Assembly (NCBI GenBank): GCA_022414725.1
Contig: CM039464.1
Span: 32,075,965-32,139,964, forward strand
Source: Microglena sp. YARC
Lineage: Eukaryota > Chlorophyta > Chlorophyceae > Chlamydomonadales > Chlamydomonadaceae
Direction: 5' to 3'
Length of the DNA stretch: 64,000 nucleotides
The notes under the pieces were generated by a model. The model was not told the DNA's origin. It saw only the letters and a list, made by a program, of their open reading frames with translations, and did no database searches. Made by a program: the position numbers and the translations under genes. Shown here piece after piece: positions 1 to 63,196 of the stretch (positions are counted from its first letter, which is position 1; every line of letters begins with the position of its first letter).

Positions 1-3000
1 TAGCAGAAGAGGGTGACACCGAAGAGCATGTTCTTGTATAAGAAGAAGTTGATCATCCGGGTGATGCGCTTGTAGCTCCAACGACCGTGCACCATTAGGA
101 GCGGGGTGAGGTAGCGGAACTGGGCAATGGCGAAGTCAGAAGCCATCACAGCCTGTCGGCCCTCTTGGCCGCTGATACCCACACCAATATGAGCAGACTG
201 TATCATGCCAACGTCGTTAGCACCGTCGCCAATGGCCAGCGTGACGTCCCCTTGCTTCTTCACTAAGCCAGTCACCTGGGCCTTCTGTAGGGGAGACACT
301 CGGCAGCACAGCACAGCTTTGCACCTCTCAGCACAGCTGATAAAGAGCTTGGCCTGCTTGCCACTGAGGGCATAGGTCAGTGCCTTGCCGTCGATGATGA
401 GAGCACAGTCCATGGAGGCGGCCTCCCCCTGCATGTTGGCCGCTGCCAGGGTCAGCTGCTCCTCCACCCTGGTGTTAGCCAGCACCGACGCACCATCAAG
501 ATCGCCTTCCAGCTCTAAGGCCTCCACGTCGGCAAAGTTGGCGGTGATGATGAACTGGCGCATCTCCTCAGTAATAAGACTGCAAGCGGTAGGGGGAAGT
601 TAGCATCCACTTAAGTTGGGAATAGGAATTAGGGTTTAGAACAGGGTTTTTCTTAGGGTGCGATTCAGCGGAAAGTGCGATTTTTAGACTTATTCATTTT
701 GGCCTGGTGCGATTTCAGGTCGTTTTTGGCCCTTGCTCATCGCACCCAAATTTATAGTTTGACGACCAGGCCCTGGGTGAAATCGCACCACGCATCTCTA
801 GTTTCGCGTCTGCCTCCCCTAAGTCATCGCACCATGCATGAGCACCAAAGTCAGTTAGGGTTAGCATGTAACTGCAAGTTAGGGACTTAGGGCAAGGAAG
901 GAGTCTTCTGGACGAGTCGTCTGTAAGTCTATAACAGCCCCGGTGTTCAACCTTTGCACCCCTTTTTGACGTCAACTGACGCCATGAGCACGATTCACAA
1001 GCGCCAGAAGACGCTTCCTGTCGAAAAGTATTAGACCATCTCCAATTGGCTCAGCAAAAGGGGGCATCGTCATTGGGCGAGCCCGCCCTGGCCCTGCCCC
1101 CTGGCCCTTTGCTTGCCAAGCCCTGCCCCTGTGGACGACGATGTAGACGACGAGCTGACTATTGAGCATGTTATCGATGGAAAGAAGAAGCGCGAACAAA
1201 GAGATAAGGTGTGAGAGATTTCGCTTCGACTTCGATCGCTCAGCTCCCACAGTTGACAGTTCCCTTCGACTTCTCTTGCTTCCATAGCTTCGCATCGACA
1301 GAGATTGCTTTGCTTCGCTATGACTTTTGCCTGCTTTGCTTCCATAGCGAGCTTCGACCTTGATCGCTTCCATAGCTTCGCCTTGCCTTTGCCTGTTTCC
1401 ACGGTTCTGTTGCTCATGGCGCACCAGGGCTAGTGGGCTACTAAGAGATATAGGGAGCCCTAACTGACTAGCTGGCTGGGTGGGTTTTTGGTAGGTTGAC
1501 AGGTATTTGGCAGATTGATTGGTTACTTTTGGGGCTGACTAGCTGACTGGCTTTCTGGGTTACTAAAAGACAAACTTTTTTTTGGTTGTCTAACCAAGGG
1601 TAGTTCAAGCCCAGATAGCATGTGCGATGACCGCTATCTGTTTTGAAAGTTCTGGTTTGTTACACTTTGTGTTTTCTAGGTCACACTTTTTAAGCTGGTG
1701 CTATTGTGAGAGGCTGCAGCAGGACCAACAATAGCACCACAATCTCTAGTTTTGTAACAAGATCTGGCCAACAATAGCACCACATGATTCTAGTTTTGAA
1801 GTAATGTAATTCCTTAGGAAAAACCCTGGTTTAGAAGGGGGTAGGGTTTAGTGGTTTAGGTTTTGATTCAAAGGTTTAGGGTTCAGGTAGTTTCAGGGTT
1901 CAGGGTCTAGGTGGGTTTAGAGTACACTGAAGAGGAGGCCACCTCCCTCATACCTGCAAGCAAATCCAATGTTGATCGCTGTTTCAAGCTTTCAGATTTA
2001 TGCATGCCATGTAAAACTGCCAGGTAAAATTGCCACGTAAAGCTACCAGGTAAAACAGCCCGGTAAAATTGCTGGGTAAAACTGCTAAGGAAAACAGCCA
2101 GGTAAAACTGCTGGGTAAAACTGCCAGATGAAACTGCTATGTAAAACTGCTTACCGACTGGTGCAGTAGAGCACTGCCCCACAGTAGCTACTTGACCTGG
2201 CATACATAAATCTGAAAACAAAGACAAGAACAACTCCAGACCATCCTCATACCTGCAAGCAAATCCGATGTTGATCGCTGTTTCCAGCTTGTCTCCAGTC
2301 AACACCCACAACCGAATGCCGGCGTCAGCCATCTGCTTGATGCACTTGGACACCCCCTCTTGCAGCCGGTCTTCAATCGCAGTGCAGCCCAAGAGGCACA
2401 GGTTATGTTCCATCTCCTCAGAAAGTTCATCCATCTTAAGCTCTCGATCAGTCAATGCAGTCTTCGCCTGCTCCCACTGCACCTGCCACTTCTCGTACGA
2501 GGCAGAGTCAAGCTCCTTGTACGATAAACACAGCGTCCTCAGACCGGAGTTGCCATATTCCTCCATGTGGTCAAGCGTAGGCTTCTTCAGCTCCAGATTC
2601 AGGGGGTTCTTGTTGTCCAGACGTGCATAGATCACAGTGTCTGCTCCCTTGCAGAAGAGCAGGAGCTTGCCACGGCTATCTCTGACAATGACCGACATGC
2701 GCTTGCGAGTGGAGTTGAACTCCAACACGTTGAGCAGCTCGTACTCTACATCATGGGTGCCAGAAGCGGTCTTCTCGCGAACAGTCACGGTGGTGTTGGA
2801 GCGCTTGCAGAAGAAGAAGCCCATCACCTTTGCCGCCACTACCAGAGCAGCCTCATCCGGGGACTCTGCCTCGTACTTGATTTCATCCTCAACAGCTGGC
2901 CCATCGGGGACCACGGTGTGGCACACAGCCAGCATTCGGAAGAACATCTCAATCTCAGGGGACCGCTCCTGCAAGGTCAGATGGGGGAGGCTGGTTAGCA

Positions 3001-14500: not shown

Positions 14501-17500
14501 TTTGGTCACCCAGAGGTGCAAGCTAGTGGGATGGTCCTTGATTGAGTTGTTTTACTTGATTTATAGCGTTTTGGGCCGATGTGTCAGGTCAGCACTGGTC
14601 ACCTAGTGGCATTTTACTTGGCACTTGCATTTACACTTGACTTAACACTTTAATTTGCATTTTACTTGGCAGCTGCTACAAATGGAGAATGCAGGAAATA
14701 CTGTACTGCATGTGTTTGCCACATGCAAACCCATTTAGCAGCATTTTACTTGGCAGCTGCTACAAATGGTGAATGCAGGGAGTTGGGCATTTATACATTA
14801 TTTTTCTAACAAGCCGCAGTACAGAAACTGTACTGCATGAGTTGGCCACATGCAAACCCCCATTTAGCAGCATTTTACTTGGCAGCTGCTACAATTGGTG
14901 AATGCAGGGAGGTTGGCTTTGATAAATTATTTGTCAAACAACATATGATTCATAATCAAAAACATAGTAAAAAAACTATGATATTTTTAAAAATATATTT
15001 CAAATGTGTTGTTCATTCTTTGCAGCTGCACCAAATGGTGTAGTTGTATACCAAGTCGCTTTGAGGATGTAGGGTCGGGGGTTCGATTCCCTCTACGGTC
15101 GCCCTAAGCGTTGCAGGTCAACGGCGATGGTAGCTTGCCCAGTTGAGGTAGAAGACCGCTCTGTACCCACGTATGACGGGTTCCCTTTATTCCCTTTATC
15201 CTTAACAGGAGTATCATTACCTTTTTTAATTTCAAATGTGTTGTACATTCTTTGTAGCTGCAACAAATGGTGAGCGAAGATATTTTTTTAAAGATATATT
15301 TCAAATTTGTTGTACATTCTTTGCAGCTGCAACAAATGGTGAATGAAGGGAAGCTGGTCCCGGATGATGTGGTGATAGAGCTCCTAAACAAGCGCCTGCA
15401 GAGCTGCTCGTCCTCTGGCTCAGCAGGATACATTTTGGATGGATTCCCTAGAACACAACATCAGGTGTGAGCATATTTTGAGATGAAGCCTGACACGTCA
15501 GCCAACTGTTTCACAACTAACTGGCTTCGGTCAGCTCCATAGTTGCCACCTGTTGTTCTGTTGCCAACACTCTCCGCCACTTTTTCGTGTCGCTTGCAAT
15601 GCTGTATAGGACTTGTTTTTTGCTTGAATTGTCATTATGCCCTCCTCCCATGCGTATGTATGTTCCTGCCCAGAGTTAGCCAAATGAGCCTAAGGGACTT
15701 GCCCAACTTCGAACAAACAGGATCAGCTCTGCATTACCAGGAGGGGCTAATTGAAAGAACATTAGATAACACACACATACACACAAGCACACACAGCCCC
15801 CCCCCACCCCCACCCCACACACACACACACACACACAAGCCCGACGCCCAATCCCGATCGCGAGCATGTCCCGGCCAGTGTTTGAATTATTTTCCTTGTT
15901 CACCCTTTATCGAGCCTCCTCAACACCAGCCCAACATGGATAGATCCAATGAAGTGTTTCTGTGTTGGGCTGCACATGGCAGCTTCCAGCTAGCTCCATC
16001 AACCAACCACTGGGTTCAGACGCACTTAGGGATTTTCAGCTGCACTTCAATTCCTGTCATGTCAGTTTTTAGACACACTAGCTAGCTTCAGATTCCACCT
16101 GTGGACAGGTAAAGGGAGCCACCTAGAAGCTGCTACGAGTAGCCCAAAACAGAAGCGTCGATCCCATCAGTGAATTGCCTCTTGCACTGCTTGTAAAGTG
16201 AGAGTTGATATTGATTGTTTGAGGTTGGTCAAGTCTCTATAGCCAAAGTGGCTGCCCCTGGACTGTAACCTACACGTGCAATGCCCTGCTCTCATAAATG
16301 AATTGCCTCTTGCACTGCTTGTAAAGTGAGAGTTGATATTGATTGTTTGAGGTTGGTCAAGTCTCTAAAGCCAAAGTGGCTGCCCCTGGACTGTTACCTA
16401 CACGTGCAATGCCCTGCTCTCATAAATGAATTGCCTCTTGCACTGCTTGTAAAGTGAGAGTTGATATTGATTGTTTGAGGTTGGTCAAGTCTCTAAAGCC
16501 AAAGTGGCTGCCCCTGGACTGTAGCCTACACGTACAATGCCCTCCTCTCATAAATGAATTGCCTCTTGCACTGCTTGTGAGAGTTGATATTGATTGTTTG
16601 AGGTTGGTCAAGTCTCTATAGCCAAAGTGGCTGCCCCTGGACTGTAACCTACACATACAATGCCCTCCTCTCATAAATGAATTGCCTCTTGCACTGCTTG
16701 TGAGAGTTGATATTGATTGTTTGAGGTTGGTCAAGTCTCTTTAGCCAAAGTGGCTGCCCCTGGACTGTAACCTACACGTACAATGCCCTCCTCTCATAAA
16801 TGAATTGCCTCTTGCACTGCTTGTAAAGTGAGAGTTGATATTCATTGTTTGAGGTTGGTCAAGTCTCTTTAGCCAAAATGGCTGCCCCTGGACTGTAACC
16901 TACACATACAATGCCCTCCTCTCATGGATGAATGAATTGCATCTTGCATTGCTCACACATTTTGGTGCCACAGCATGAATCACCTACTGCATCGCTCTCA
17001 AATGTGTTGTACATCTGAATGAATTGCCTTTTGCTCAGCTCAGTACGTGTGGTGCTACTGCATGAATGGATCCCTCTTGCACCGATCATAACTTTTGGTA
17101 CAACTGGATGAATTGCCTCTTGCACAGCTCATTTGTTTTTGTACTACTGCATGAATGAATTGCCTCATGCACCCAGGCTTGCACCGCTCGTACATTTTGG
17201 TACTTCTGCATGAGTTGCCTCTTACACAGTTCATTTTTTTCGTACTACTGCGTGAATAATTGCCTCATACACCCAGGCTTGCACTGCTCGTAATTTTTGT
17301 TACTTCTGCTTAAATTGCCTCTTCCACGGCTCATACATTGTGGTGCTACTGCATGAATTTATTACCTCTTGCACCGCTCTCATGTTTTGGTACTACTACA
17401 TGAATTAAATCTTGCAGAGCTCGTACATTTTGGTGCCTCAGCATGAATCGCCTCTTGCACCGCTCCCAATTTTTTCATACGACAGCATGAATTGAATCTT

Positions 17501-20447
17501 GCACCGCTCATACATTTTGGTGCCACTGCATGAATGAATTGCCTCTTGCAACCATGCTTGCACCGCTCATATTTTCTGGTGCTACTCCATGAATTGCCTC
17601 TTGCACAGCTCATACATTTTGGTGCTTATGCATGAATGAATTGCCTCTTGCACCGCTCATACATTTTGGTGCTTATGCATGAACAAATTGCCTCTTGCAC
17701 AGCTCATACATTTTGGTGCTTATGCATGAATGAATTGCCTCTTGCACAGCTCATACATTTTGGTGCTTATGCATGAATGAATTGCCTCTTGCACAGCTCA
17801 TACATTTTGGTGCTTATGCATGAATGAATTGCCTCTTGCACAGCTCATAATGTATTTTTACTACTGTATGAATTGAATCTAGCACCGCTCCATATTATTT
17901 TTGTACTACTGCATGGATTGCCTCTTGCACCGCTCCAAATGTTTTTTGTACTAACGCATGAATTGAATCTTGCACCGCTCATGCATGTTTTTGCTACAGC
18001 ATGAATCGCCTCTTGCACCGCTCCCAATGTTTTTTGTACTAATGCATGAATTGAATCTTGCACCGCCCATGCATGCTTTTGCTACAGCATGAATCGCCTC
18101 TTGCACCGCTCCCAATGTTTTTTGTACTTATGCATGAATTGAATCTTGCACCTCTCATACATTTTGGTGCTACTGCATGAATGAATTGCCTCTTGCACTG
18201 CTCCCATTTTTTGACAATACTGCATGAATTGCCTCTTGCACCCGCTTGCACCGCTCAATTTGTTTTTGTACTAATGCATGAATGGTAGGCCGAGAAGTTG
18301 TTGAAGATCTGTGACATCCAGCTTGCTTTGAATCTATCGCTGAGGGAGGAAGTGCTGGTGGAGAAGTGCCTAGGTGAGAGTGGTGTATTATCCAGGTTGC
18401 TATGAATCCGTCACTGTGTATTATCAAACTTGCTTTGAATCTGTCGCTGAGGGAGGAAGTGCTGGTGGAGAAGTTCCTAGGTGAGAGAGGTGTATTATCC
18501 AGGTTGATTTGCATCTGTCACTGTGTATTATCCAGCTTGCTTTGAATCTGTCACTGAGGGAGGAAGTGATGGTGGAGAAGTGCCTAGGTGAGAGTGGTGT
18601 ATGATCCAGATTGCTTTGAATCTGTCACTGAGAGAGGAAGTGCTGGTGGAGAAGTGCCTAGGTTAGAGTGGAGTCTAGGTGTGTGGAGAAGTGCCTAGAT
18701 GTCTAGGTGTATTATCCTAGGTGTGCGGAGATGTGCCTAGGTGTATTGTAGTTGTGTGGAGAAGTGCCAACGAGCCTAGGTGTAGTGGTTTGAAACGTTC
18801 TGCAACCACCATGTAACCTGACCATCCTTTAACCACCTTGCAACCACCCTTCAACCACTCTTCAACCTGACGATCATATAACTATCCTGCAACCACCCTT
18901 CAACCATTCTACAACCACTCTGCAACCACCCTTCAAACGTTCTGCATCCACCCTGCAACCAACCTGCAACCACTCTTCAACCTAGCCATCGTATAACCAC
19001 CCTCAACCACACTGTAACCACTCTGCAACCACCTTTCAAACACTCCGCAACCACCTTTCTAATGTTCTGCAACCACCATGCAACCTGACCATCCCTGCAA
19101 CCACCCTGCAACCACTCTTCAACCTAACCATCATATAACCACCCTCAACCACACTGTAACCACTCTGCAACCACCTTTCAAACACTCCGCAACCACCCTT
19201 CAAATGTTCTGCAACCACCATGCAACCTGACCATCCCTGCAACCACCCTGCAACCACTCTTCAACCTGACCATCCTATTACCACCCTGGAACCACCCTTG
19301 ACCACTCCGCAACCACCCTTCAAATGTTCTGCAACCACTGTTAACCACTCTGCAACCACCCTGCAACCACTCGTCAATCTGACCATCCTGTAACCACCCT
19401 GGAACCACTCTGCAACCACCCTTCAAACGGTCTGCAACCACTTTTAAACACTCTGCAACCACCCTGCAACCACTCGTCAATCTGACCATCCTGTAACCAC
19501 CCTGGAACCACTCTGCAACCACCTTGAGCCACTCTGCAACCACCCTGCAACCGCTCGTCAATCTGACTATCATGTAACCACCCTGTAACCACTCAGCAAC
19601 CACCCTTCAAACGTTATGCAACCACCTCTAACCACTCTGCAACCACCCTGCAACCACTCGTCAATCTGACCATCATGTAACCACCCTGTAACCACTCTGC
19701 AACCACCCTTCAAACGTTATGCAACCACCTCTAACCACTCTGCAACCACCCTGCAACCACTCGTCAATCTGGCCTTCCTGGAACCACCCTTCGGCCACTC
19801 TGCAACCACCCTTCAAACGTTATGCAACCACCTTTAACCACTCTGCAACAAGGGGAGGGCAAAAAAAAGTGAAAGACCCCATCCCAAAAAAAGTGCTGAG
19901 GCACCCTTCCCCAGACCCCCCCCCCCCGGCTCCGGAACCCACTGCACAGTCACTATCTCAGCCACCACTTAGTGTAATGGTGTCTAATTAGGCTCAATTT
20001 ACAGGGTTTTCAAAGGCCTATCCATTGAGGTTGGTCTAGAGACCATCCGGAATGTTTGAAACATAGAAAATCGTCATCATCAATGTTACATTGTTTAGTG
20101 GGGGTTGTGGGTCAGGGCCCCTTGGCCCCTAATGTGCCCACCTTCAATATTCTTCAATAACCAGGCCTTCAATCCAAGCTTCAATCAGGCATTAAATAAT
20201 CAGCCAAGCACGCAAGAGAATTCTGAAGGCGCTCTAAGTTTCCGTGGTCGCCGCTAAGCAATCGTTTACCGCACTTGTGGCAGGTAGTGCCCTTTGATTG
20301 TGGGTCCATAGAATAACATCAACTAGCACTAGTCACCGGAACGAAAGCAAACGCACAGTGACGGGAGGGGTTAATTGAAGAATGAGGTCTCGCTCTGTAC
20401 GTCGTTGTACAAATGTTGGCTAGGGCGTTGTGTGTGGAGAGAGAGAA

Positions 20448-40648: not shown

Positions 40649-40699
40649 GCAGCTACTACTGTCCATTATGTTCTAGCAACCACGAAGACATATATCGGG

Positions 40700-42352: not shown

Positions 42353-45300
42353 ATGTCTTCCTCAGGAATGAAGCAGCTGCTCAACCTGCTCTGTACAGCT
42401 GCCAAGAGCACTACTGGCTATGCATCTGGGGCTGGTGCCATGGGGAAGTCCTTCCAAATGGTGCAGGGCGGTACACGCAGCGTGCTTGGGGAGGGCCCCA
42501 TGTCAGCTTTGAGACATAGCTTCCACACACATGCGGCAAATGCAGCCGCCCAGGTAGGATGCCACATTTCCGCTGTACTCTTACTCCTGAAACATGCTAT
42601 AATAATATATACACATGCATGCATAGATATTTGTACTCCTGGAACATGCAATAATGATAAATACACATGCATCTGCATGCATGCATACATATATGTACTC
42701 CTGAAACATGCTATAATGATATATACAGATGCATGCATACATATATGTACTCCTGATGCATGCCATAATGTTACATACACATGCATGCATACATATTTGT
42801 AATCCTGAAACATGCTACAATGATATATACACATGCATGCATACATATATATACTCCTGAAACATGCTACAATGATATATACACATGCATCTGCATGCAT
42901 GCATACATGTATGTACTCCTGAAACATACTATAATGATATATACACATGCATGCATACATATATGTACTTCTGAAACATGCTATAATGATATATACACAT
43001 GCATCTGCATGCATGCATACATATATATACTTCTGAAACATGCTATAATGATATATACACATGCATCTGCATGCATGCATACATTTATGTACTCCTGATG
43101 CATGCTATAGTGATATATACACATGCATGCATACATATATATACTCCTGAAACATGCTATAATGATATATACACATGCATCTGCATGCATGCATACATTT
43201 ATGTACTCCTGATGCATGCTATAGTGATATATACACATGCATGCATACATATATATACTCCTGAAACATGCTATAATGATATATACACATGCATCTGCAT
43301 GCATGCATACATTTATGTACTCCTGATGCATGCTATAATGATATATACACATGCATGCAAACATATATATACTTGCGTCATGCCCCCCCCCCCACCCCAC
43401 CCCACCCCACCCCCACCCCACCCCACCCCGTGCATGCACCATCTTTATGCCTGCACCCCATGCATGTGCCCCTAAATGCACCCCAGGCATGCACTGCGCA
43501 TTCATGAATCCTCTTGAATACAAATTCATACCCATTGTTTCTACTTGGCACCATGACCTTGTGTTGCTGTATATATTTAACATGGAATTAGTGCTGATAA
43601 TAATGCTTGCTTGCTGCAATCTTGCTTGCTGCTATATTGCCTTTCTTTTTCTGAGGATTTGTTGGAAGACCCCTTCCAGATGTTGTGGAGTGGGCTTGTC
43701 TTGCGCCAACAATGGCCTGTCGGTACAATCTAATTTACAGATTGGAGTGTCTGTTCTGCCCCTCTGGGGCCTCTTTTTCCTTTGAGCTGTCCAACCATGG
43801 GGGGGGCTGTCCAATCAGGGGGCTGTCCAACCAGGGGGAGCTGTCCAACCAGGGGGGGGCTGTCCGACCAGGAGGGGGCTATCCAATCAGGGGGCTGTCC
43901 AACCAGGAGGGTGAGCTGTCAAAACAGGGGGGGGGGGGGGGGGGGTCAATCCAGGGGAGGCTGTCCAACCGGAGGTAGGGGCTGTGCAACAAGGGGGAGC
44001 TGTCCAACCAGGGGGGGTTGTCCAACCAGGGGGGGCTGTCCTACCAGGGTGAGCTGTCCAACCAGGTAGTTTTCCAATTAGGGGGGGGCTGGCCACCACA
44101 GGAGACGTTCCTTCATTGGTATCTTCATCATTGTTGACGCCGATTTGTATCATTCCGATCATTCCATTCTAACGGACGTCCCCACCTTTGTTTTTTCAGA
44201 AAGGAGTGTCTGCTCTGCCCAAGGGAGCCTCTTTTTTGAAGGAGCTTTCTAACAAGGGGGGCCGTTCCTTCAGTGCTATTTTCTTACGCCTTAAGTCAAC
44301 AGCTGCTGTTGTTGGTGAGTGATTGAGGTAGTTGGTTGGATTAGTTGGAGTTGTTGGTTGGAGTTGGTCCAATTTTCTTACGCCTCAAGTCAACAGCTGC
44401 TGTTGTTGGTGAGTGGTTGTAGTAGTTGGTTGGAGTAGTTGGAGTTGTTGGGTGGAGCGGTTGCAGTGGTTAGTTGGTTAATTTTTCTTACGCCTCCAGT
44501 CAACAGCTGCTTTTGGTGGTGAGTGATTGAGGTAGTTGGTTGGAGTAGTTGGAGTGGTTGTAGTAGTTGGTTGGAGTAGTTGGAGTTGTTGGTGAGTGAT
44601 TGAGGTAGTTGGTTGGAGAATTAAATGATCGCAGTTGCACAAACTCAGGGCCCTCGTTGATAAACAATCGTTTGGGGTTCAATTCATCAATGTTTTTTCT
44701 TTTTAAGTCATTCTTATCACGGTTGGTCAAGTGTTTTTAGCCTATTTGGCCTACCCCTGGACTGTAACATGCATACATACAGTTAGTAGGAAGATAGCAA
44801 GCAGCAGGCAGCTACAACCAGTCAGTGGTTGAGTTGGTAGGAAGATAGCAAGCAGCAGGCAGCTACAACCAGTCAGCGGTTGAGGTAGCTGGTCGGAAGA
44901 TAGCAAGCAGCCGGCAGCTGCAACCAGTCAGTGATTGAGGTAGCTGGTCGGAAGATAGCAAGCAGCAGGCAGCTACAACCAGTCAGTGATTGAGGTAGCT
45001 GGTCGGAAGGTAGCAAGCAGCCGGCAGCTGCAACCAGTCAGTGATTGAGGTAGCTGGTCGGAAGGTAGCAAGCAGCCGGCAGCTGCAACCAGTCAGTGGT
45101 TGAGGTAGCTGGTCGGAAGATAGCAAGCAGCCGGCAGCTGCAACCAGTCAGTGATTGAGGTAGCTGGTCGGAAGGTAGCAAGCAGCCGGCAGCTGCAACC
45201 AGTCAGTGCTTTAAGGTAGCTGGTATGAAGATGACAGGCAGGAAGTTAGGATAGCGTTTATGTCCGGTTAGGTTGGAAGTTAGTATGCAGACCTGGTAGC

Positions 45301-46891
45301 CTGAAGCAGTCATGTGCACATTCAAACATATCAGATATCAATTGCATGCATTTTGGTGATTGTGTGGGTCAGTGTATTGGTGTTCCCGTTGTATGGGTGA
45401 TTCTATGGGTGTTCCCATTGTATGAGGGAGTGTATGGGTGAGCGTATGGGTGTTCCTATTGTATGACTGTTCCTTCTATGTGGGTGATTGTATGGTTGAT
45501 CGTATGGGTTATTGTATGGGTCATTATATGGGTGTTCCTATTGGATGGTTGAATGTATGGGTGTTCTCTGTGTGTGGGTGATTGTATCGGTGCATTGTAT
45601 GGGTGATTGTATGGGTGTTCCATTTGTATGGGTGATTGTATCGGTGATCCCTTTTCCCATGTACAAAAGCTCAGCCCATTCTGGTAATTCTGGTAATTCT
45701 AGTAACACTGTGGCCCTCTCCTGTCCCAGGTGAGGCTGCATCATCATCGGGCCCAGCAGCAGCTACGGAGCTCATTCAGGGCTCAGCTGCCTTGAGCCAC
45801 GGACTGAGTGACAGTGCTAGGAGACAGCTAATGTGGTGGATGGGAGGAAGTGCTGTTTGGGTGTACAGCATGGTAGTGCTTGGTGGAGTCACTCGCCTCA
45901 CTCGGTCAGGCCTGTCTATGACTGAGTGGAAGTTCACAGGTGCGTGGGTGTACTGCACTGTAGTGCTTGGTGGAGTCACTCGCCTCACATGATCGGGCCT
46001 GTCTATGACTGAGTGGAAGTTCATAGGTGAGTGGGTGTACTGCACTGTAGTGCTTGGTGGAGTCACTCGCCTCACTCAATTGGGCCTGTCTATGACTGAG
46101 TGGAAGTTCACAGGTGCGTGGGTGTACTGCACTGTAGTGCTTGGTGGAGTCACTCGCCTCACATGATCGGGCCTGTCTATGACTGAGTGGAAGTTCATAG
46201 GTGAGTGGGTGTACTGCACTGTAGTGCTTGGTGGAGTCACTCGCCTCACATGATCGGGCCTGTCTATGACTGAGTGGAAGTTCATAGGTGCGTGGGTGTA
46301 CTGCACTGTAGTGCTTGGAGGGGTCACTCGCCTCACTCAATTGGGCCTGTCTATGACTGAGTGGAAGTTCACAGGTGAGTGGGTGTACCGCACTGTAGTG
46401 CTTGGTGGAGTCACTCGCCTCACTCGATCAGGCCTGTCTATGACTGAGTGAAAGTTGACGGCTGAGTAGATGTTCGGCACTGTAGTGCTTGGAGGGGTCA
46501 CTCGCCTTACTCAATTGGGCCTGTCTATGCCTGAGTGGAAGTAGACAGCTTAGTGGGCCAGATCACATTGAATTTTGAATATCACTGCTACCCCCCACAC
46601 CCGCACCCACATCCATACCCACACACAGACATCGACACACCCTAACACCACCACCACCACCAAAAACAGCTAGGACATGAACAGTAACAACAAGCCAACA
46701 GCAGCAGCAGCAGCAGTAGCAGCAGCAACAAAAACATTAGCAAAGTCACAAAAAAATCAGCAACAAAAATAATAATAACAAAACAAAGATGAAGTCAACA
46801 ATGACAATAACATCTCCCCTCTCCCACCCCCTCAGATGAGTATCCCCCCCAAAACAACAGCAAAAGCAACAACAACAACAACAACAACAGC

Positions 46892-47209: not shown

Positions 47210-48015
47210 CTACAACAACAACAAGGGCAGCAACAACAACAAGGACAACAACAACGGTGGCGACGACGACGACGACTACAACAGCAACAACTACAAGTAA
47301 TCAAGACGAAAAACGGAAAATACGGGGGGAAATTGCTCCATCAGGGCGTAAGTCCCCCAGCAACAAAAACGACAACACCAGCAACACCACCACTACCACC
47401 ACCACCACCAACAACAACAACTAAAACAACAACCAAACAAAAAACTCGCCCCCTCAGGTGAGAAGTCCCCCAGCAGTCAGAAGGATTGGGAGGAAGAGTT
47501 TGACCGCTACCGTTCTTCTCCTGAATTCAAGAAGCTGCACTCTAGCATGACCTTAGAGGAGTTCAAGTTCATCTTCTGGATGGAGTACGCACACAGGTAG
47601 GCCAAGAATGTTCCTCCGTGCTGTCGTTTAGTAGCCCCCCCCCCCCCCCCCCCACCCCATCCACCCACCGGTTACCTACCCACCCCAACCCACCCACCCC
47701 ATCCCACACACCCACACAAGCTATTGCCCTTGCATGACCTTGGGTAGTTCAAGCTCATCTTGTGGATGGAGTGCGCACACAGGTACGCACACCCTAAATC
47801 TTATACCCATAAACTTGCAGGAGTTCAAGTTCACCGCTACACACTTAGTATTGCATTGAATTGCAGTACAGTACAGTGCAGAGTACATTTCAGCACAGTA
47901 CTGTATATTACAGTTTAAAGCCTTATGCCTAAGGTCTAAAAGCGCACCCTACCATTTTTGTTTTCGACGGCACGTCGCCAGTGCATCGCCAGTTCGTCGT
48001 TGCATGGCGGCGCAT

Positions 48016-48062: not shown

Positions 48063-50173
48063 AGGCTACGCGCTCCACCATAACTCAGCAACAATCCTGG
48101 AATCAGGCTTGGGTAGTCTGAGTAGCTACTCAACCTGGCCTACAGAAATCTGGAATAAACAAAAAAGAACCTCCCCCCCTGCTCAGGATGTGTGGCTGTC
48201 TGCTAGGCACTCTAACGATGAACCTCGCCACTCAAATCTAGCAAGTGAAACATGAGACCTGAAACCTGAAAAGTAAATATTAAAGGAAAAAGCATGAAGG
48301 CTAAAGCATTAAAAGAAGCATTGAAAGCATAAGGGCTAAAGCATGAACAGAAGCATTGGAAGCGTGCAGTTTAAAGCATCAAGCACGCAAGCATAAATCA
48401 TTAAGTGTAAAGCCTAAAGCCTCAACGTACACCCTACATGTCCCACGCGCAGGATGTGAGGTCGTCTGTGGGTTAGTTATCCCATGCGCCTACTTCCTTG
48501 CTTGTGGCTTCATCAAATGCTTTCGCATAAATCATTAAGTGAACAGCCCACTGCCTAAATCATAAACGTGCACCCTACCTGTCGCACACAGGATGTGGGG
48601 TCGTCTGCTCGGCATTGGGTTCGTTATCCCAGGTGCCTACTTTCTTGCTCGTGGCTTCATCAAAGGTGCCTTCGCAAAGCGGCTGGGTCTGCTCTTCTTC
48701 ATGGGAGGCACACAGGGACTGGTTGGATGGTGGATGGTCCGCAGTGGATTGACGGTGGGTGCTGTGTGTGGATGGGCGGGCGAGGTAGGGCTGGTTGGGG
48801 TGAGGCAAACGCCTGGGTCTTCTCTTCTTCATGGGAGGCACACAGGGACTGGTTGGATGGTGGATGGTCCGCAGTGGATTGACGGTGGGTGCTGTGTGTG
48901 GATGGGCGGGCGAGGTAGGGCTGGGTGGGGTGAGGCAAACGCCTGGGTCTTCTCTTCTTCATGGGAGGCCCACAGGGACTGGTTGGATGGTGGATGGTCC
49001 GCAGTGGATTGACGGTGGGTGCTGTGTGTGGATGGGCGGGCGAGGTAGGGCTGGGTGGGGTAAGGCAAACGCCTGGGTCTTCTCTTCTTCATGGGTAGCC
49101 CACAGAGACTGGTTGGATGGTGGATGGTCCGCAGTGGATTGACGGTGGGTGCTGTGTGTGGATGGGCGGGCGAGGTAGGGCTGGGTGGGGTGAGGCAAAC
49201 GCCTGGGTCTTCTCTTCTTCATGGGTAGCCCACAGGGACTGGTTGGATGGTGGATGGTCCGCAGTGGATTGACGGTGGGTGCTGTGTGTGGATGGGCGGG
49301 CGAGGTAGGGCTGGGTGGGGTGAGGCAAACGCCTGGGTCTTCTCTTCTTCATGGGTAGTCCACAGGGACTGGTTGGATGGTGGATGGTCCGCAGTGGATT
49401 GACGGTGGGTGCTGTGTGTGGATGGGCGGGCGAGGTAGGGCTGGGTGGGGTAAGGCAAACGCCTGGGTCTTCTCTTCTTCATGGGTAGCCCACAGGGACT
49501 GGTTGGATGGTGGATGGTCCGCAGTGGATTGACGGTGGGTGCTGTGTGTGGATGGGCGGGCGAGGTAGGGCTGGGTGGGGTAAGGCAAACGCCTGGGTCT
49601 TCTCTTCTTCATGTGTAGCCCACAGGGACTAGTTGGATGGTGGATGGTCCGCAGTGGATTGACGGTGGGTGCTGTGTGTGGATGGGCGGGCGAGGTAGGG
49701 CTGGGTGGGGTGAGGCAAACGCCTGGGTCTTCTCTTCTTCATGGGTAGCCCACAGGGACTGGTTGGATGGTGGATGGTCCGCAGTGGATTGACGGTGGGT
49801 GCTGTGTGTGGATGGGCGGGCGAGGTAAGGCTGGGTGGGGTAAGGCAAACGCCTGGGTCTTCTCTTCTTCATGTGTAGCCCACAGGGACTGGTTGGATGG
49901 TGGATGGTCCGCAGTGGATTGACGGTGGGTGCTGTGTGTGGATGGGCGGGCGAGGTAGGGCTGGGTGGGTAAGGCAAACGCCTGGGTCTTCTCTTCTTCA
50001 TGGGTAGCCCACAGGGACTGGTTGGATGGTGGATGGTCCGCAGTGGATTGACGGTGGGTGCTGTGTGTGGATGGGCGGGCGAGGTAGGGCTGGTGGGGTG
50101 AGGCAAACGCCTGGGTCTTCTCTTCTTCATGGGTAGCCCACAGGGACTGGTTGGATGGTGGATGGTGAAAAGT

Positions 50174-50224
<51 letters not shown>

Positions 50225-53200
50225 TTATCAAACGTCAAGGCTTATATTATACTTCCTCTTGTTATCATGAGCCCAAGAATGAGTGGGGCGCATTATCAAA
50301 AAGGGTTCTAATGCCACATGTATTCATTATTGAATTACTTTTTTTATGTTTTGTTATCAGGAGCCCAAGGTGGACATTACAGGGGGACATTACCAACAAG
50401 GGTTCTAATGCCACACGTATTCATGATTAAATTACTATTTCATATTACGTTATCAGGAGCCCAAGACTGAGTGGGGGATGTTGTAAAAAAAAGGTCCAGT
50501 ACCACAAATGCATATTTAATTACTTTTTAATGTTTTTTAATATTTAATTACTTTTTAATGTTTTATCCACAGGAGCCCAAGAGTGAGTGGGGGATGTTGT
50601 CAAAAAGGGTTATTATACCACGCGTGTTCAATACTGATTACTATTGTATGTTGTTCTCAGGAGCCCAAGAATGAATGGGAGACGCCCCGGGTCAGTCCCT
50701 ACAGGCTTGCCGCTCATCTGGTGTCTGCCTTTGCCATCTATACCACCTTGGTTTGGACTACTCTGGACCTAGCCTATCCTAAGCCCGTTAGCGCGGCCGT
50801 GTCATCTGCATCCCAGCTCGCAGCCAAGGGCTTGCGTCGCTACCTCCTACCCATGTCGGCCCTAGTTGCCGTCACGGCCACCTCCGGTGCCTTTGTGGCA
50901 GGTGAGGAATGTGGTGTTGTGGGCACGCGGTTTTCAATCATATTAAGTTGTATTCTTTTTGTTGGCCCTAGTTGCCGTTACGTCACCCCCGGTGCCTTTG
51001 TGGCAGGTGAGCTGATGAGGGAAGGGATGAGGTATTGTTGACAGTCCGTTTTTAATTATACCGGCATTTAATTATTATTATATTTGTTGGCCCTAGCTGC
51101 CGTCACGGCCACCTCCGGTGCCTTTGTGGCAGGTGAGGGATGTGGTGTTGTGGACACGTTGCTTTAAACTATATTAGGTTATATTATATTTGTTAGCCCT
51201 AGCTGCCGTCACGGCCACCTCCGGTGCCTTTGTGGCAGGTGAGGGATGTGGTGTTGTGGACACGTTGCTTTGAAGTATATTAGGTTATATTATATTTGTT
51301 GGCCCTAGCTGCCGTCACGGCCACCTCCGGTACCTTTGTGGCAGGTGAGGGAAGGGATGTGGTATTGTGGACACGCTGCTTTAAAGTATATTAGGTTATA
51401 TTACATGTGGAGGCCCTAGTTGCCGTCACGACCAACTCATGCGCCTTTGCCGCAGGTGAGATGGTGAGGCAAAGGATGTGGTATTGTGGGCACACTGCTT
51501 TAGATTATATTATGTTATATTCGGGTTATATTATATGTGCTGGCCCTAGTTGCCGTCATGGCAACTCATGTGCCTTTGCGGTAGATGAGCTGGTGAGGGA
51601 AAGGATGTGGTATTGTGAGCACACAGTTAGTAATCATATACATATATAATCATATCATAATTATATCATGTTTATTATATCATATCACTAATAACACTTA
51701 TCCAGCCCCATTCTTGAATTAGAGACACTTTGTATCTCATTCCGCTTTTTTTGAGGGAGTGGGGGGGGGGAAGGGGGGCTTGGCCCTTTTTATTTGTTGG
51801 CCCAGAGGTAGTTGAGAGTGGATTGGATGCGCTGGAGCTTGGAGGAAGCGTTGCAAACGATGATTGAAATAGACTGAGGAAGGATAATGAAGCTTGCCCC
51901 GTCTCAGCCCAGCTCAGCCCGTCCCCTACCCCCCCTCCATTCCTGTTCCGTCCCGTCCCATCACCTCCCAACCCGTCACATCACCTCCCATCACCTCCCG
52001 TCCCATCCCGTCCCTCCCATCCCATCCCATCCCATCCCATGCACAACACCTACCCCCGCCTCTACCCCCACCTAACCCCCACCCCTATCCCTGCCCCCAC
52101 CTCATCCACCCCACCCCCTGCAGGTATGGATGCTGGGCGCACTTACAACACCTACCCCCACCCAAACCCCACCCAAACCCTATCCCTGCCCCCACCTCAT
52201 CCCACCCCCTGCAGGTATGGATGCTGGGCGCGCCTACAACACCTACCCCCGCCTCTACCCCCACACAAACCCCACACAAACCCCACCCCTATCCCTGCTC
52301 CCACCTAACCCCACCTAACCCCACCCCACCCCCTGCAGGCATGGATGCCGGGCGCGCCTACAACACCTACCCCCTTATGTCTGGACAGATAGTGCCCCCA
52401 GAGTACTGGCAAATGAGCGGCGTGGCCAACTTTTTTGAGAACACAGCTGCCGTTCAGTTTAACCACCGCGCCCTGGCCACCACCACGCTGGTCACTGTGC
52501 TTACCATGTGGGCCACGGTAAGCTTTAAATATATTAAGCATGTTTGATGTTTTTATTCATTTATTTATTCATTCATTTATTCGTTTATTCATTTTCCATG
52601 TAAGCCATGAAAGGTTTTATAGATTGATGCATTTATTTATTTATTTGCCCTGTGGGCTGTGGCAGGGGGCCTTGAGGAATATTTTATGTAGACCCTTCCA
52701 GGACCCTTGGCTCAGAAGTTGTTACATTTTGCTTTTACCCCCCCACCCCCCACCCCCCACCCCAACCTGTAAGCCCCCCCCCCACACCGCACACCCCACA
52801 CCACCCCCCTCCCAACCTGTAAGGCCCCCCCCCCCCTCACCCTCCCAACCTGTAAGCCCCTTCCCCCCCCCCCCCCCCCTCCCAACCTGTAAGGCCAGTA
52901 TCTCCTCCAGTAATTATAATTGGGGGGTCAAAATAGGTTGTACAGTAATCCTCTCCGTCAGCTCTACCCATATTCGTCTTTACATGTGTCTTTAGACAAG
53001 GTTTGACGAAATGGTTAAGCATACCCTCTTTCCTAGGCCTGACTTTAGACAAGGTAGGGCATGAATAGGTAGCGAAGTCAATCTGCAATCACACAATCCA
53101 AACACCTTAAAAACAAATCGGTACAAGCAGCAGCTTGCAGGCAGCTTGGGGTTCATTCAATCGTTTAAATTTTGAAGGGGGATTTTTTTATAATACAAGA

Positions 53201-54344
53201 GGTTCAATGGTGGGCTTTGCAGATGGTCCTCAAAAATGTTTTATGTATAGTGATTCAGCGGATGTTTTGGGATTCAATTTGTCTGTCTGCCTGCCTGTCT
53301 GTGTGTCTCTCTGTCCGTCTGTCTGTCTGTCTGTCTGCTTTTTTACTTCTTTGTTTGTCATCCTCACTAAACTCTAAACTCTTAACAATTCAAACATTCC
53401 CTTCCCCCTACAGGTGATGTCAAGCGCTGCACCACCGATGGCAAAACTGTACACCCTTAACCCTAAACCCTTAACAAGTAAAACATTTCCTCCCCCCCGC
53501 AGGTGAGGTCAAGCGCTGCCCCACCGATGGCCAAACCCTAAGACCTAAACCCTATACCCTTACCAAGTACAACGTCCTCTCCCCCCCGCAGGTGAGGTCA
53601 AGCGCTGCCCCACTGATGGCCAAACCCAAGCCCCAAACCCTAAACCCTTACCAAGTACAATGTCCTCTCCCCCCCGTGGGTGAGGTCAAGCGCTGCGCCA
53701 CCTCTGGCCAAACTATACAGCCTAAAACCTGAACCCTGAACAATTAAAACGTCCTCTCCCCCCCGCAGGTGAGGTGGAGCGCTGCACCACCGATGGCCAA
53801 ACCATACACCCTAAACCCTAAACCCTAAACCCTTAACAATTAAAACGTCCTCTCCCTCCCCTCAGGTGAGGTCAAGCGCTGCTCCACCAATGGCCCAACC
53901 CTAAGCCCTAAACCCTTAACCCTTAACAAGTAAAACGTCCTTTCCCCCCTGCAGGTAAGGTCAAGCGCTGCTCCATTGATGGCCGAACCCTAAGCCCTAA
54001 ACCTTCATCCCTAAACCCTTAACAAGTAAAACGTCCTCTCCCCCCCGCAGGTGAGGTCAAGCGCTGCACCACCGATGGCCAAACGCTGCATGGACCTGGT
54101 CATGGCAGTGACGGCTGTCCAGTTTGCTCTCGGCATCTACACCCTGCTGGAGTATGTCCCCGTGCACCTAGGCAGCATGCATCAAGCCAACGCACTCAAC
54201 CTTTTCACAGCAGTACTCTGCACCCTCCATGCCCTGCGACCACCGGTTCAGACAGCAGGCAGCCAGCTGATCGGTCGTGTTGGTATCCCCATGGGTGTGT
54301 TGGCTGTGTCCGCAATTGCAGTGGCAGTGACACAGCACAAGTAA
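42353..54344 (+). CDS. COX15: COX15 heme A synthase, 8 exons, 513 aa
   Basis: Mitochondrial inner-membrane enzyme that oxidises heme O to heme A for cytochrome c oxidase. Exons: 42353-42553, 44200-44314, 45730-45939, 47458-47596, 48592-48754, 50661-50901, 52339-52517, 54051-54344 (1,542 nt, TAA stop); all phases agree. The N-terminal ~130 residues look like a mitochondrial presequence plus linker. The core starts at [33 protein letters not shown]. The four conserved histidines are present: EYAHR (H221), RLAAHL (H295), QFNHR (H399) and MHQAN (H460). Other family marks: [26 protein letters not shown] and FFEN. Eight or so membrane helices are expected and hydrophobic stretches fit. The start could also be the in-frame ATG at 42308. 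Nearly every intron edge is followed or preceded by copies of the exon edge. Function is secure; exon joins are inferred. Confidence 0.95.
42580..43380. repeat. 55-65-bp tandem array in COX15 intron 1
   Basis: About 13 units of ACTCCTGAAACATGCTATAA then TGATATATACACATGCATGC and ATACATATATGT. It is followed by C-rich CCCACCCCAC (43383-43432). Confidence 0.92.
43735..44125 (+). repeat. Degenerate exon 2 copy expanded into a GAGCTGTCCAACCAGGGGGG array
   Basis: TTACAG at 43739 is followed by ATTGGAGTGTCTGTTCTGCC and GGGGCCTCTTTTTCC, a diverged copy of the start of COX15 exon 2 (44200). Then a short piece matching exon GAGCTTTCTAACAAGGGGGG is repeated about 14 times as CTGTCCAACCAGGGGGG up to 44090. 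AGACGTTCCTTCATTGGTAT then mimics the exon's GCCGTTCCTTCAGTGCTAT. Confidence 0.8.
44315..44635 (+). repeat. Copies of COX15 exon 2 3' end plus donor
   Basis: TTTTCTTACGCCTCAAGTCA-ACAGCTGCTGTTGTTG-GTGAGTGG (to 44411) and TTTTCTTACGCCTCCAGTCA-ACAGCTGCTTTTGGTG-GTGAGTG (to 44518) repeat the true edge at 44314. GTTGGTTGGAGTAGTTGGAG spacers lie between. Confidence 0.9.
44636..44772 (-). repeat. Interspersed repeat, ACAGTCCAGGGG family, minus orientation
   Basis: Read on the minus strand: TTACAGTCCAGGGGTAGGCC, AAATAGGCT, TTGACCAACCGTGATAAGAA, GATGAATTGAACCCC, in COX15 intron 2. Confidence 0.8.
44780..45230. repeat. 57-bp tandem array, about 8 copies
   Basis: Units of GCAGCTGCAACCAGTCAGTG then ATTGAGGTAGCTGGTCGGAA and GGTAGCAAGCAGCCG. 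45350-45660 continues with looser TATGGGTGATTGTATGGGTG repeats. Confidence 0.92.
45940..46560 (+). repeat. 87-bp array: 7 copies of COX15 exon 3 3' end plus donor
   Basis: Each unit has GTAGTGCTTGGTGGAGTCAC, TCGCCTCACTC, GGGCCTGTCTATGACTGAGT, GGAAGTTCACAG and then GTGAGTGGGTGTACTGCACT. The coding part is [19 protein letters not shown]. The last two units are diverged and one has lost its donor. The real exon end is 45939. Confidence 0.95.
46640..47457 (+). repeat. CAA/ACC trinucleotide arrays with three copies of COX15 exon 4 acceptor
   Basis: Long CAACAACAA runs (46855-46940, 47035-47075, 47145-47225). Embedded are CCCCTCAG-ATGAGTATCCCC (46836), CATCAG-GACATAAGTCTCCC (47127) and CATCAG-GGCGTAAGTCCCCC-AGCAACA (47344), each resembling the real acceptor and start CCCTCAG-GTGAGAAGTCCCC-CAGCAG at 47458. 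Confidence 0.85.
47597..47850 (+). repeat. Copy of COX15 exon 4 3' end plus donor
   Basis: GCATGACCTTGGGTAGTTCA-AGCTCATCTTGTGGATGGAG-TGCGCACACAG-GTACGCAC ends at 47782. It repeats the true edge at 47596 with several changes, one creating a stop. GAGTTCAAGTTCACCG at 47821 is a further fragment. Confidence 0.85.
48018..48062. repeat. 45-nt poly-C tract
   Basis: Uninterrupted C run on the coding strand inside COX15 intron 4. Other long C runs: 40140-40166, 33131-33155 and 47634-47652. Lengths of such runs are prone to sequencing error. Confidence 0.9.
48180..48591 (+). repeat. Copies of COX15 exon 5 acceptor plus exon start
   Basis: CTGCTCAG-GATGTGTGGCTGTCTGCTAG (48186) and GCGCAG-GATGTGAGGTCGTCTG, TGGGTTAGTTATCCCATGCG, CTACTTCCTTGCTTGTGGCT, TCATCAAATGC (48451-48525) are decayed versions of the real exon start at 48592. 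Between them are AAAGCATGAAGGC short repeats. Confidence 0.85.
48755..50165 (+). repeat. 130-bp array: about 11 copies of COX15 exon 5 3' end plus donor
   Basis: Every unit contains CTGGGTCTTCTCTTCTTCAT, GGGTAGCCCACAGGGACTGG, TTGGATGGTGGATGGTCCGC, AGTGGATTGACG, then donor GTGGGTGCTGTGTGTGGATG. The coding part is [23 protein letters not shown] with the true edge at 48754. Units are nearly identical, suggesting recent expansion or homogenisation. Confidence 0.96.
50176..50227. repeat. TA microsatellite and poly-T
   Basis: About 15 TA dinucleotides followed by about 21 T, breaking the last unit of the 130-bp array. Confidence 0.9.
50262..50660 (+). repeat. Four copies of COX15 exon 6 acceptor plus exon start
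   Basis: ATGAGCCCAAGAATGAGTGG (50268), TTATCAG-GAGCCCAAGGTGG (50361), TTATCAG-GAGCCCAAGACTG (50457), CCACAG-GAGCCCAAGAGTGAGTGG (50573), and then the real TTCTCAG-GAGCCCAAGAATGAATGG (50661). Each is followed by AT-rich GATGTTGTCAAAAAGGG-like sequence. Confidence 0.92.
50902..51600 (+). repeat. Six copies of COX15 exon 6 3' end plus donor
   Basis: TTGGCCCTAGTTGCCGTCAC, GGCCACCTCCGGTGCCTTTG, TGGCAG-GTGAG recurs with edges at about 51006, 51131, 51239, 51344, 51455 and 51584 (period about 110 bp). The last has AG-ATGAG, a lost donor. The true edge is 50901. AT-rich TTATATTATATTTGTTG separates them. Confidence 0.94.
51601..51890. other. AT-rich then G-rich intron filler, no gene seen
   Basis: ATCATATA runs followed by a G-run region around 51760. 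No gene or element recognised. Confidence 0.4.
51895..52338 (+). repeat. Copies of COX15 exon 7 acceptor plus exon start in C-rich repeats
   Basis: CCCCCTGCAG-GTATGGATGCTGGGCGCACT-TACAACACCTACCCC (52124) and CCCCCTGCAG-GTATGGATGCTGGGCGCGCC-TACAACACCTACCCC (52215) precede the real CCCTGCAG-GCATGGATGCCGGGCGCGCC at 52339. A shorter ACAACACCTACCCC piece is at 52042. Confidence 0.93.
52730..53345. other. COX15 intron 7 first part: C-rich and TCTG repeats
   Basis: CCCCAACCTGTAAGGCCCCC units at 52740-52895 and TGTCTGTCTGCC repeats at 53278-53338. No gene is seen. Confidence 0.6.
53400..54050 (+). repeat. About 90-bp array: 7 copies of COX15 exon 8 acceptor plus exon start, with CCCTAAACCC
   Basis: Units read CTCCCCCCCGCAG, GTGAGGTCAAGCGCTGCACC, ACCGATGGCCAAACC, then CTAAGCCCTAAACCCTTAAC and AAGTAAAACGTCC. 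The coding part is [11 protein letters not shown]; the real exon starts at 54051. One unit (53684) has lost the AG acceptor. CCCTAAA-like telomeric motifs fill the non-exon part. Confidence 0.95.
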
Positions 54345-54700: not shown

Positions 54701-54974
54701 CTTAGCTACCTTGACTCTCCCCCTGCCCCCCCACCCACCCACCCAACCACCCAACCACCCAACCACCCCACCGCATTCCACCCCTAGTGCACTCATCCCC
54801 CATCCCCACCCCCACTGGGTGCTTGTATATGCAAGATGCAAGTCTACCTAGCCTGAGTGCGGACAGCAACTAGGGAGTGTGTGTTACTGTTCAGGGGTGG
54901 CCGAATAGGCTGATGGGACTTGCCCTTTTTTGTTTGTTTTGTTGTGAGCGGAATTTCACCCCAGGAATCCCAGT

Positions 54975-59990: not shown

Positions 59991-60004
59991 AGTCACCTCA
60001 GGTT

Positions 60005-61800: not shown

Positions 61801-61824
61801 TTAATTTGCTCCCTGAGTCCCTGG

Positions 61825-62010: not shown

Positions 62011-62035
62011 GTGGTTCAGGCTTTACCCTCCCCAT

Positions 62036-62520: not shown

Positions 62521-62533
62521 ATGCATATCTGAT

Positions 62534-63196
62534 CTAGACGTTATCCTCCCCTTTAACCTCCCTGTCAACCTCTGCATTGATCTCCTCTTTAACCTTCTCT
62601 TTAATCTTTCTGCCTCCCTTCCCTTGAATTTTCCCGTCAACCCTTGCATTCATCTCCTCTATTTCCGCCTCTTTAATCTTCCAGTCAACCTTTCCGTCAA
62701 TCCCCGCATTAATCTCTTCTGCGTCCGCCGATCTTGACTCTTGGATACATGGCCCAGCTGGAAATGATGCCGTGCTCGTTGAGAACAGTGTCGTGCTCGT
62801 TGGTAACGATGAGGAGCTCGGTGCAGCCGATGTCATGCTTGCGCTCCGTGCGATTGGCAAGTTTTGGTAGCTGTTCTGGGCGCTGGCCTGCATCGACATT
62901 GTGTCTGAGTTTGCGTCCGAGTCTCCTTGCAGTACAACCGACAGCGTCTTCAGTTCTGGCTGGTCATCCCTTCCAGGACTGACCACACGGGTACCAACAG
63001 GACTAGTCATACTCATGTCCAATGAGGGGCAAACCGAACTACCAACTAGAGAGCCCCGCCGGGAAGAGGCCATCACCAATAAGCTTGATGGTGGTTTGGA
63101 GTTACGCTGGAAGATCTCAGTGCCATCGTCCACAGGCTCCGGCACGGGAGATTTCAGGTCAGGCCGGTCCTTCAGCTCCGGGCTGTACCCGAAGAC
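62534..63196 (-). CDS. Internal exon of an unrecognised minus-strand gene (partial)
   Basis: Open on the minus strand from the acceptor TACTTGCAG (exon begins at 63196) to a stop at 62534; the real exon may end earlier at a donor I cannot place. The product begins VFGYSPELKDRPDLKSPVPE, continues with a Ser/Thr/Pro-rich, probably disordered stretch, and ends in a charged, heptad-like tail (EEINAGIDGKVDWKIKEAEI) that may be repeat-derived. It joins in phase with the candidate exon 63985-63922. No domain recognised; tandem copies of its 3' half follow, as with exons of the better-known genes. Confidence 0.5.
   Translation of the reverse strand, partial: VFGYSPELKDRPDLKSPVPEPVDDGTEIFQRNSKPPSSLLVMASSRRGSLVGSSVCPSLDMSMTSPVGTRVVSPGRDDQPELKTLSVVLQGDSDANSDTMSMQASAQNSYQNLPIARSASMTSAAPSSSSLPTSTTLFSTSTASFPAGPCIQESRSADAEEINAGIDGKVDWKIKEAEIEEMNARVDGKIQGKGGRKIKEKVKEEINAEVDREVKGEDNV

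Follow-up and report, generated by a model that had tools for sequence, protein, structure and literature searches.

Tandem copies of exon edges in introns of Microglena sp. YARC suggest intron lengthening by duplication across splice junctions

Introduction

Where the DNA of long introns comes from, and how a true splice site is told from a close copy of itself, are questions raised by a 64,000-nucleotide stretch of the genome of the green alga Microglena sp. YARC (contig CM039464.1, here C3, positions 32,075,965-32,139,964). The whole stretch is referred to below as the window. It contains genes for a flippase (minus strand, three exons), an adenylate kinase (five exons), a 3'(2'),5'-bisphosphate nucleotidase (eight exons) and COX15 (eight exons), the models of which comprise 20 introns and 40 splice junctions. 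An earlier note on this DNA had claimed that at most exon boundaries the introns are built from tandem copies of their own exon edges, that the copies leave rows of decoy splice sites, and that a genome-wide habit of lengthening introns through their splice junctions lies behind them.

Results and Discussion

Splice junctions are copied into the adjacent introns

The exons were read from the window sequence as in-frame segments separated by GT-AG introns. At each junction the adjacent intron was searched with a probe made up of 40 exon bases and 20 intron bases, and a match including at least 12 exon bases was counted as a copy. Intron-side copies were found at 21 of the 40 junctions, amounting to 104 copies in total (Table 1). 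This is slightly above half of the boundaries and no more, so that the word 'most' applies only in a narrow sense. All 21 belong to the 23 splice junctions named in the earlier note, while the remaining two failed. At the 5' edge of nucleotidase exon 5 the repeat is confined to the intron side (junction score 61, exon-only score 12), and the 5' edge of COX15 exon 4 did not pass with its score of 29 (99.5th percentile of the null, 26). A further array, which had been assigned to the 3' edge of COX15 exon 8, is genuine and spans the stop codon, not a splice junction. It is the only case of copied coding sequence among seven start and stop edges, which are too few for a comparison.

As claimed, the copies lie on the intron side, run across the splice junction and differ from each other by substitutions and indels. 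Out of the 104 window copies, 96 were aligned across the splice dinucleotide and 84 exhibited an intact GT or AG. Since these 96 copies cross the dinucleotide into intron sequence, they are not derived from spliced RNA. That the copies are found in the intron, and that the exon body remains attached to the intact copy, needs no further explanation because a tandem duplication spanning the junction, together with the coding constraint, forces both. Donor-edge copies adjoin the upstream exon and acceptor-edge copies the downstream exon. Each array concerns one edge of one exon, and both ends of one intron can carry separate arrays.

A comparison with shuffles, as the earlier note had proposed it for the whole genome, was carried out in the window and gave more matches than expected by chance. 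With a probe of 30 exon and 30 intron bases, the own intron outscored every other window intron and 30 shuffles at 26 of the 40 junctions; an exon-only probe of 30 bases did so at 22. At all 21 copied junctions the score in the own intron exceeded the best score in any other window intron, the weakest case being the 5' edge of COX15 exon 2 (36 vs 20). By a score measure, 23 of the 40 junction probes reached 28 within 1500 intron bases and none of 39 on the exon side, a cut-off higher than the 99.5th percentile (26) obtained when these probes were searched against distant DNA. The copied fraction was 0.57 at the junction and had dropped to 0.09 at a position 80 bases inside the exon.

The units of twelve splice-junction arrays measure 87, 130, 106, 91, 89, 99, 128, 158, 149, 107, 109 and 94 bases, and only two of these lengths are divisible by three. 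A coding role of the copies was ruled out by unit lengths, stops and drift. A polarity of copy ages was also considered and dropped, there being no steady trend across the arrays.

Table 1. Copies of exon edges in the window (GT and AG: copies with intact dinucleotide; a slash within letters marks the junction)
Edge copied	Copies	Position	Strand	Real exon or junction	Remarks
Flippase exon 2, 3' edge and donor	1	1946..1991	-	junction 2253/2252	Junction supported by protein record P0121
Adenylate kinase exon 2, 5' edge and acceptor	5	14665..15279	+	15327-15464	AG 5/5
Adenylate kinase exon 3, 3' edge and donor	4	18441..18717	+	18289-18373	GT 3/4
Nucleotidase exon 2, 3' edge and donor	4	24573..25089	+	24301-24459	Spacing ~149-161; GT 4/4
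Nucleotidase exon 3, 5' edge and acceptor	1	26155..26211	+	28404-28555	2.2 kb upstream of real exon
Nucleotidase exon 4, 5' edge and acceptor	24	29337..32000	+	32001-32172	Spacing mostly 99-111; AG 20/23 aligned; limits from Tandem Repeats Finder (TRF) rows 29337-29592 and 29784-32057
Nucleotidase exon 4, 3' edge and donor	3	32261..32635	+		GT 3/3
Nucleotidase exon 5, 3' edge and donor	3	33244..33627	+	33021-33079	GT 2/3
Nucleotidase exon 6, 5' edge and acceptor	3	33792..34160	+	34405-34525	AG 3/3
Nucleotidase exon 6, 3' edge	7 (copies or part copies)	34546..34916	+		Three extend to donor, GT intact in one
Nucleotidase exon 7, 3' edge and donor	5	37812..38291	+	37684-37722	GT 5/5
COX15 exon 2, 5' edge and acceptor	1	43734..43778	+	44200-44314	
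COX15 exon 2, 3' edge and donor	2	44372..44538	+		
COX15 exon 3, 3' edge and donor	7	45993..46557	+	45730-45939	Unit 87; GT 5/7
COX15 exon 4, 3' edge	2	47746..47833	+	47458-47596	One extends to donor
COX15 exon 5, 5' edge and acceptor	2	48184..48484	+	48592-48754	
COX15 exon 5, 3' edge	11	48845..50177	+		Unit 130; ten extend to donor with GT intact
COX15 exon 6, 5' edge and acceptor	3	50259..50594	+	50661-50901	AG 2/3
COX15 exon 6, 3' edge and donor	6	50968..51589	+		Unit ~106; GT 5/6
COX15 exon 7, 5' edge	3	52043..52250	+	52339-52517	
COX15 exon 8, 5' edge and acceptor	7	53398..53991	+	54051-54344	Unit ~89; AG/GT in six, GG/GT in one
COX15 coding end including stop codon	2 (in 3' flank)	54394-54533, 54578-54711	+		Array like those above, at an edge without a splice site

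Copied junctions recur at chaperonin loci

The genome was searched with PF00118 (64 matches), and genes with an exon chain were picked, their introns being unseen beforehand. The resulting genome set comprises eight loci on contigs C1, C2, C3 and C5, which are part of the listed gene clusters; two of the loci, L032 and L033, are partial and were chosen for their small size. As splice sites we accepted GT and AG pairs that were consistent in phase and kept the profile continuous, and introns without a clear site pair were left out before counting. Hand reading was used for introns 3 and 4 of L026, for intron 4 of L027 (GC-AG) and for three edges with a donor only, at which the intron was cut at the next uncertain point.

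Copies of at least 12 exon bases were present at 25 of the 51 junctions of this set (78 copies). At the score cut-off of 28, there were 28 copied junctions of 51, compared to 17.3 expected when arrays were counted once (P 0.00014). The first 41 edges contributed 24 (15.0 expected), and of ten later edges four were copied. By score, copied junctions occurred at seven of the eight chaperonin loci. To this extent the habit extends beyond the window, though L032 has none.

Two of the loci, L029 and L030, are similar CCT genes, presumably alpha-like by sequence. Their exons can be aligned, but three homologous intron pairs gave best local scores of only 31 (maximum 1710), 23 (maximum 1274) and 52. 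Junction copies are present in both genes. Judged from these sequences, arrays apparently come and go at a higher rate than that of exon divergence, which would mean a fast turnover.

Some single features of these loci were noted as well. In L030, a copy of an exon in the next intron (9462-9620) is a separate Pfam match, covering profile positions 322-374 where the real exon covers 286-374. The hand-assigned intron of L027 at 4330 (reverse-strand coordinates) is likely a GC-AG intron in a CCT gene (CAG/GCAAGT). Conserved CCT exons of L026 (~6095) and L029 (5698-6206) contain apparent frameshifts, which are compatible with sequence error as well as with decay.

Decoy splice sites are numerous and of good quality

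Sites were scored by a leave-one-out matrix, for which the real sites of the window and of the genome set were used together. In the window 62 of 96 decoys, distributed over 18 of the 21 junctions, reached or exceeded the score of the real site; in the genome set this was the case for 29 of 77 decoys (16 of 25 junctions). A smaller, window-only matrix gave 64 of 96 decoys at 20 of the 21 junctions. Thus, the predicted rows of decoy donors and acceptors are genuine both in number and in quality. The identity of the decoy dinucleotide was 0.938 in the window and 0.857 in the genome set, the respective values of the flanks being 0.928 and 0.884. As the dinucleotide is about as conserved as its flanks, we concluded that the decoys are neither kept nor purged.

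If they were used, the 84 intact window decoys would lead to an in-frame stop in 76 cases, to a frameshift in five and to a harmless insert in three. The conserved protein requires the copy attached to the exon, that is the first donor and the last acceptor. A 'first come' choice fails because acceptors take the last copy. From what is generally known of splicing, exon definition is the probable basis on which the copy attached to the exon is selected, since the decoys are often indistinguishable from it by site sequence. Exon definition fits the short exons of the nucleotidase and COX15 genes (39-294 bases), which lie in long introns.

The donor-like sequence GTGAG starts three of the 20 downstream exons (COX15 exon 3 at 45730, exon 4 at 47458 and exon 8 at 54051). 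It could be a remnant of an AGGTGAG duplication.

Proposed duplication across exon edges as a source of intron DNA

We propose that introns of this alga lengthen by recurrent, edge-biased tandem duplication of DNA, often straddling the splice junctions, and that the sites are chosen via exon definition. We assign this explanation a probability of roughly two in three. Slippage or unequal exchange may repeat the segments, which at exon edges measure about 90-160 bases. A segment straddling an edge would be kept only where the exon body is still joined to one intact copy, and the surplus copies would turn into intron and drift. Founding duplications would occur about twice as often in the ~120 intron bases closest to an exon as in deeper parts; being commoner there, they would often re-copy the exon edge with its donor or acceptor. 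Splicing would use the exon-joined copy through the shortest acceptor-donor pairing across the real exon, while mistakes would be cleared by nonsense-mediated decay.

The most serious competitor, which we nevertheless consider unlikely, is a growth of minisatellites that is blind to the junctions. Duplication would then proceed at a uniform rate in non-coding transcribed DNA, exon edges would be copied only where a duplicated segment happens to straddle them, and the excess at the edges would be due to mid-intron insertions of unrelated DNA diluting the interior. Duplication indeed runs throughout the introns. In the window, TRF arrays with a period of at least 10, a size typical of minisatellites (units >10 bp), make up 64% of the intron bases, and about 71% of the intron-interior probes have a nearby copy. 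The copied stop-codon end of COX15 fits junction-blind growth, too. Hence a lengthening through the splice junctions, as it was put in the earlier note, describes a likely excess at the exon edges and not the whole process.

Whether edge copies are commoner than copies at random intron positions, the point on which the earlier note had staked its claim, depends on how arrays are counted. Without collapsing, the control inflates the rate for the interior, to which an array of ten copies contributes ten positions, as opposed to one junction. This naive control was replaced by one in which each repeated family counts by its first position alone, a procedure that was checked by simulation. Counted in this way, the window revealed 23 copied junctions vs 14.0 expected (38 testable edges, the two edges of a 118-base intron being left out), and both sets together 51 vs 31.3 (89 tested edges of 91), a ratio of about 1.6. 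In the genome set, junctions exceeded the expectation even in the uncollapsed control (28 vs 21.0, P 0.013). It argues against junction-blind growth that the ratio is the same in the two gene sets (1.64 and 1.62) and drops in both beyond 120 bases. For both sets together, the founder-duplicated fraction was 0.56 at the junction, 0.62 at 1-60 bases, 0.47 at 61-120 bases, 0.24 at 121-300 bases and 0.24 beyond. The window excess remained with complex probes only. Removal of positions recurring elsewhere in the window, and thereby of its interspersed repeats, gave expected values of 13.9 or 12.8 and let the window ratio climb to 1.66-1.80, contrary to a dilution of the interior. Junction-blind simulations, which made use of random sequence, assumed unit lengths and copy numbers and a pipeline of the same kind, resulted in ratios of 0.85-1.04 for sets of 38 edges, 1.64 being reached in 0.15-4.3% of the sets. 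With 89 edges, three nulls attained 1.63 in 0.01%, 0.7% and 0.4% of the sets.

Several points weigh against the proposed edge-biased duplication with choice by exon definition. The uncollapsed, intron-matched test disclosed no junction excess in the window (23 observed vs 22.4 expected, P 0.49); its repetition gave 22.7 expected (P 0.54) and, for both sets, 51 vs 43.7 (P 0.04). A fourth null, in which half of the events place unrelated DNA into the middle of the intron, yielded a ratio of 1.28 and reached 1.63 in 12% of the 89-edge sets, a result in favour of junction-blind growth. All P values take the edges as independent. TRF coverage is lower beside the exon (0.26 at 1-25 bases, 0.41 at 26-60 and 0.56-0.58 at 61-300), and similarity correlated with distance from the exon edge negatively in six arrays and positively in four of the ten analyzed. 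Exon definition is less apt for the long flippase exons (579 to 1449 bases, window part), and the decoys are presumed to be silent from protein homology and one protein record. Judged by the simulations, a junction excess at the exon edges is likely, not certain.

More tentatively, and with a probability of about one in three, we suggest that exon edges might be active duplication hot spots at which a factor tied to the boundary seeds the copies, and that the spliceosome might read exon context, not site sequence. Transcription, co-transcriptional splicing, chromatin or slippage-prone sequence flanking the sites would be candidates for such a factor. Should the hot spots exist, the protected exon edge would be a lasting supply of intron DNA.

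It is very improbable that the copies are functional, serving as rows of sites or alternative exon ends for regulated or recursive splicing, with AG/GT decoys acting as ratchet points by which splicing ends up at the last copy. Six of the seven decoys of COX15 exon 8 have the form AG/GT, mostly AG/GTGAGG, and the real last exon cannot be skipped. Both decoys of exon 7 that extend to the acceptor read CAG/GTATGG where the real edge is CAG/GCATGG, and dual-specific AGGT sites within tandem repeats are described for human UBC and VCX3A in the available text of PMC10809524. However, AG followed by a donor-like GT is clear at only two of the nine copied window acceptors (COX15 exons 7 and 8) and weak at nucleotidase exon 6 (AG/GTTGG), exons 3 and 4 of COX15, which are real internal exons, likewise begin with GTGAG and would be skipped by a ratchet, and the decoy dinucleotides drift at about the rate of their flanks. 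Least probable of all is an assembly artefact, with collapsed or expanded repeats set beside exons: such regions are hard to assemble and the exons of L026 and L029 exhibit apparent frameshifts, but the copies are set apart from each other by substitutions and indels, turn up both in the window and (score 28) at seven of the eight further loci in an assembly of 568 Mb (2390 contigs, six of them 18-195 Mb), and form different arrays in homologous introns of paralogues.

Exon edges, whose reference sequence stays fixed, make a source of intron DNA visible here, which bears on the question of how introns grow. For the choice between true site and decoy, the arrays offer dozens of endogenous copies of a site with part of its exon, several per transcript, so that the context rules of site choice could be read from RNA data without constructing reporters.

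Relation to known systems

Tandem duplication is a known way of intron gain. In the available text of PMC4974935, potato RdRp is an example (also named in PMC3296678), and fission yeast introns spanning several 24-bp AGGT copies are cited. As far as these texts set out the model, exon sequence and splice sites are put inside an intron there as here, and the protein remains unchanged while the duplicate is spliced out. Direct tandem copies with exon sequence and a splice site are what we found at 21 of 40 and 25 of 51 junctions. In the published cases, as far as described in these texts, a new intron arises, whereas the arrays reported here extend an intron whose other end lies elsewhere. One segment supplying both GT and AG was not found among the arrays, each of which comprises one edge; matches of donor arrays to downstream exons were not scanned separately. 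The best reading of the arrays is a junction-spanning tandem duplication which lengthens existing introns, as a variant of the known tandem-duplication model. In the literature searched, in its available text and with subscription papers mostly outside, no report was found of serial exon-edge copies lengthening existing introns.

In the dual-specific sites of human UBC and VCX3A, splice sites likewise lie inside a repeat unit and are multiplied by its expansion. According to the available text of PMC10809524, the intron consists there of whole repeat units within coding repeats, whereas the copies in Microglena are non-coding and have unit lengths that are mostly not multiples of three. In the available text of two studies, tandem repeats are reported from nuclear genomes of green algae, namely Chlamydomonas relatives (PMC8226300) and Haematococcus (PMC7617258); these texts describe repeat content, not exon-edge copies.

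A minority of the acceptor decoys resembles the ratchet points of recursive splicing by the sequence AG/GT. Unlike ratchet points, most acceptor decoys lack it. Introners, copies of one element inserted into many genes, share with our arrays the link between repetition and introns. In contrast to introners, the copied junctions match their own intron best, as compared among the window introns. A dispersed motif, 'acagtccaggggt(t)ggccaaataggctaaagggacttgccc', was noticed by eye in variant forms in introns and intergenic DNA at ~13600, 15670, 36490, 40000, 40710 and 63220. The motif looks like a short interspersed repeat.

Genes of the window and repeats outside the exon edges

Protein matches to the window genes came from chlamydomonadalean green algae, with up to 69% identity for COX15, 76% for the nucleotidase and 64% for the flippase (own record excluded). 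The part of the flippase inside the window matched the protein record P0121 by 100%, and this record maps onto the same three exons. For COX15 and the nucleotidase, no near-identical protein was present among the 120 matches listed (best 69% and 76% identity). The arrays may hamper gene prediction, as the two array-rich genes have no near-identical record among these matches and the three-exon flippase has an exact one. The adenylate kinase assignment is putative; it comes from the earlier note and from a nucleotide-binding motif of the protein.

Tandem copies were also compared between introns and intergenic DNA. The interior match rate was 0.71 in introns vs 0.185 in intergenic DNA, and a test of 18 introns against three intergenic segments gave P 0.007, a suggestive contrast that rests on few segments. 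By segment, the fraction was 0.08-0.22 in the intergenic parts (4648-5549, 21480-23256 and 39877-42352) and 0.53-1.0 in 16 of the 18 introns. Over nineteen spread, unannotated 10-kb stretches of the genome TRF coverage varied from 0.03 to 1.0, the value of the window being 0.48.

A pairing of 5' with 3' intron ends was rejected, as the duplex energy of the own ends was better than the mean of other introns in only six of 18 introns. Among the 18 introns with a length of 800 bases or more, 14 had a 5' part richer in G/T than the 3' part (Wilcoxon P 0.002). Most of adenylate kinase intron 1 is occupied by a 7-kb array (6339-13402) of approximately 190 copies of a 37-base unit, which has no contact to an exon.

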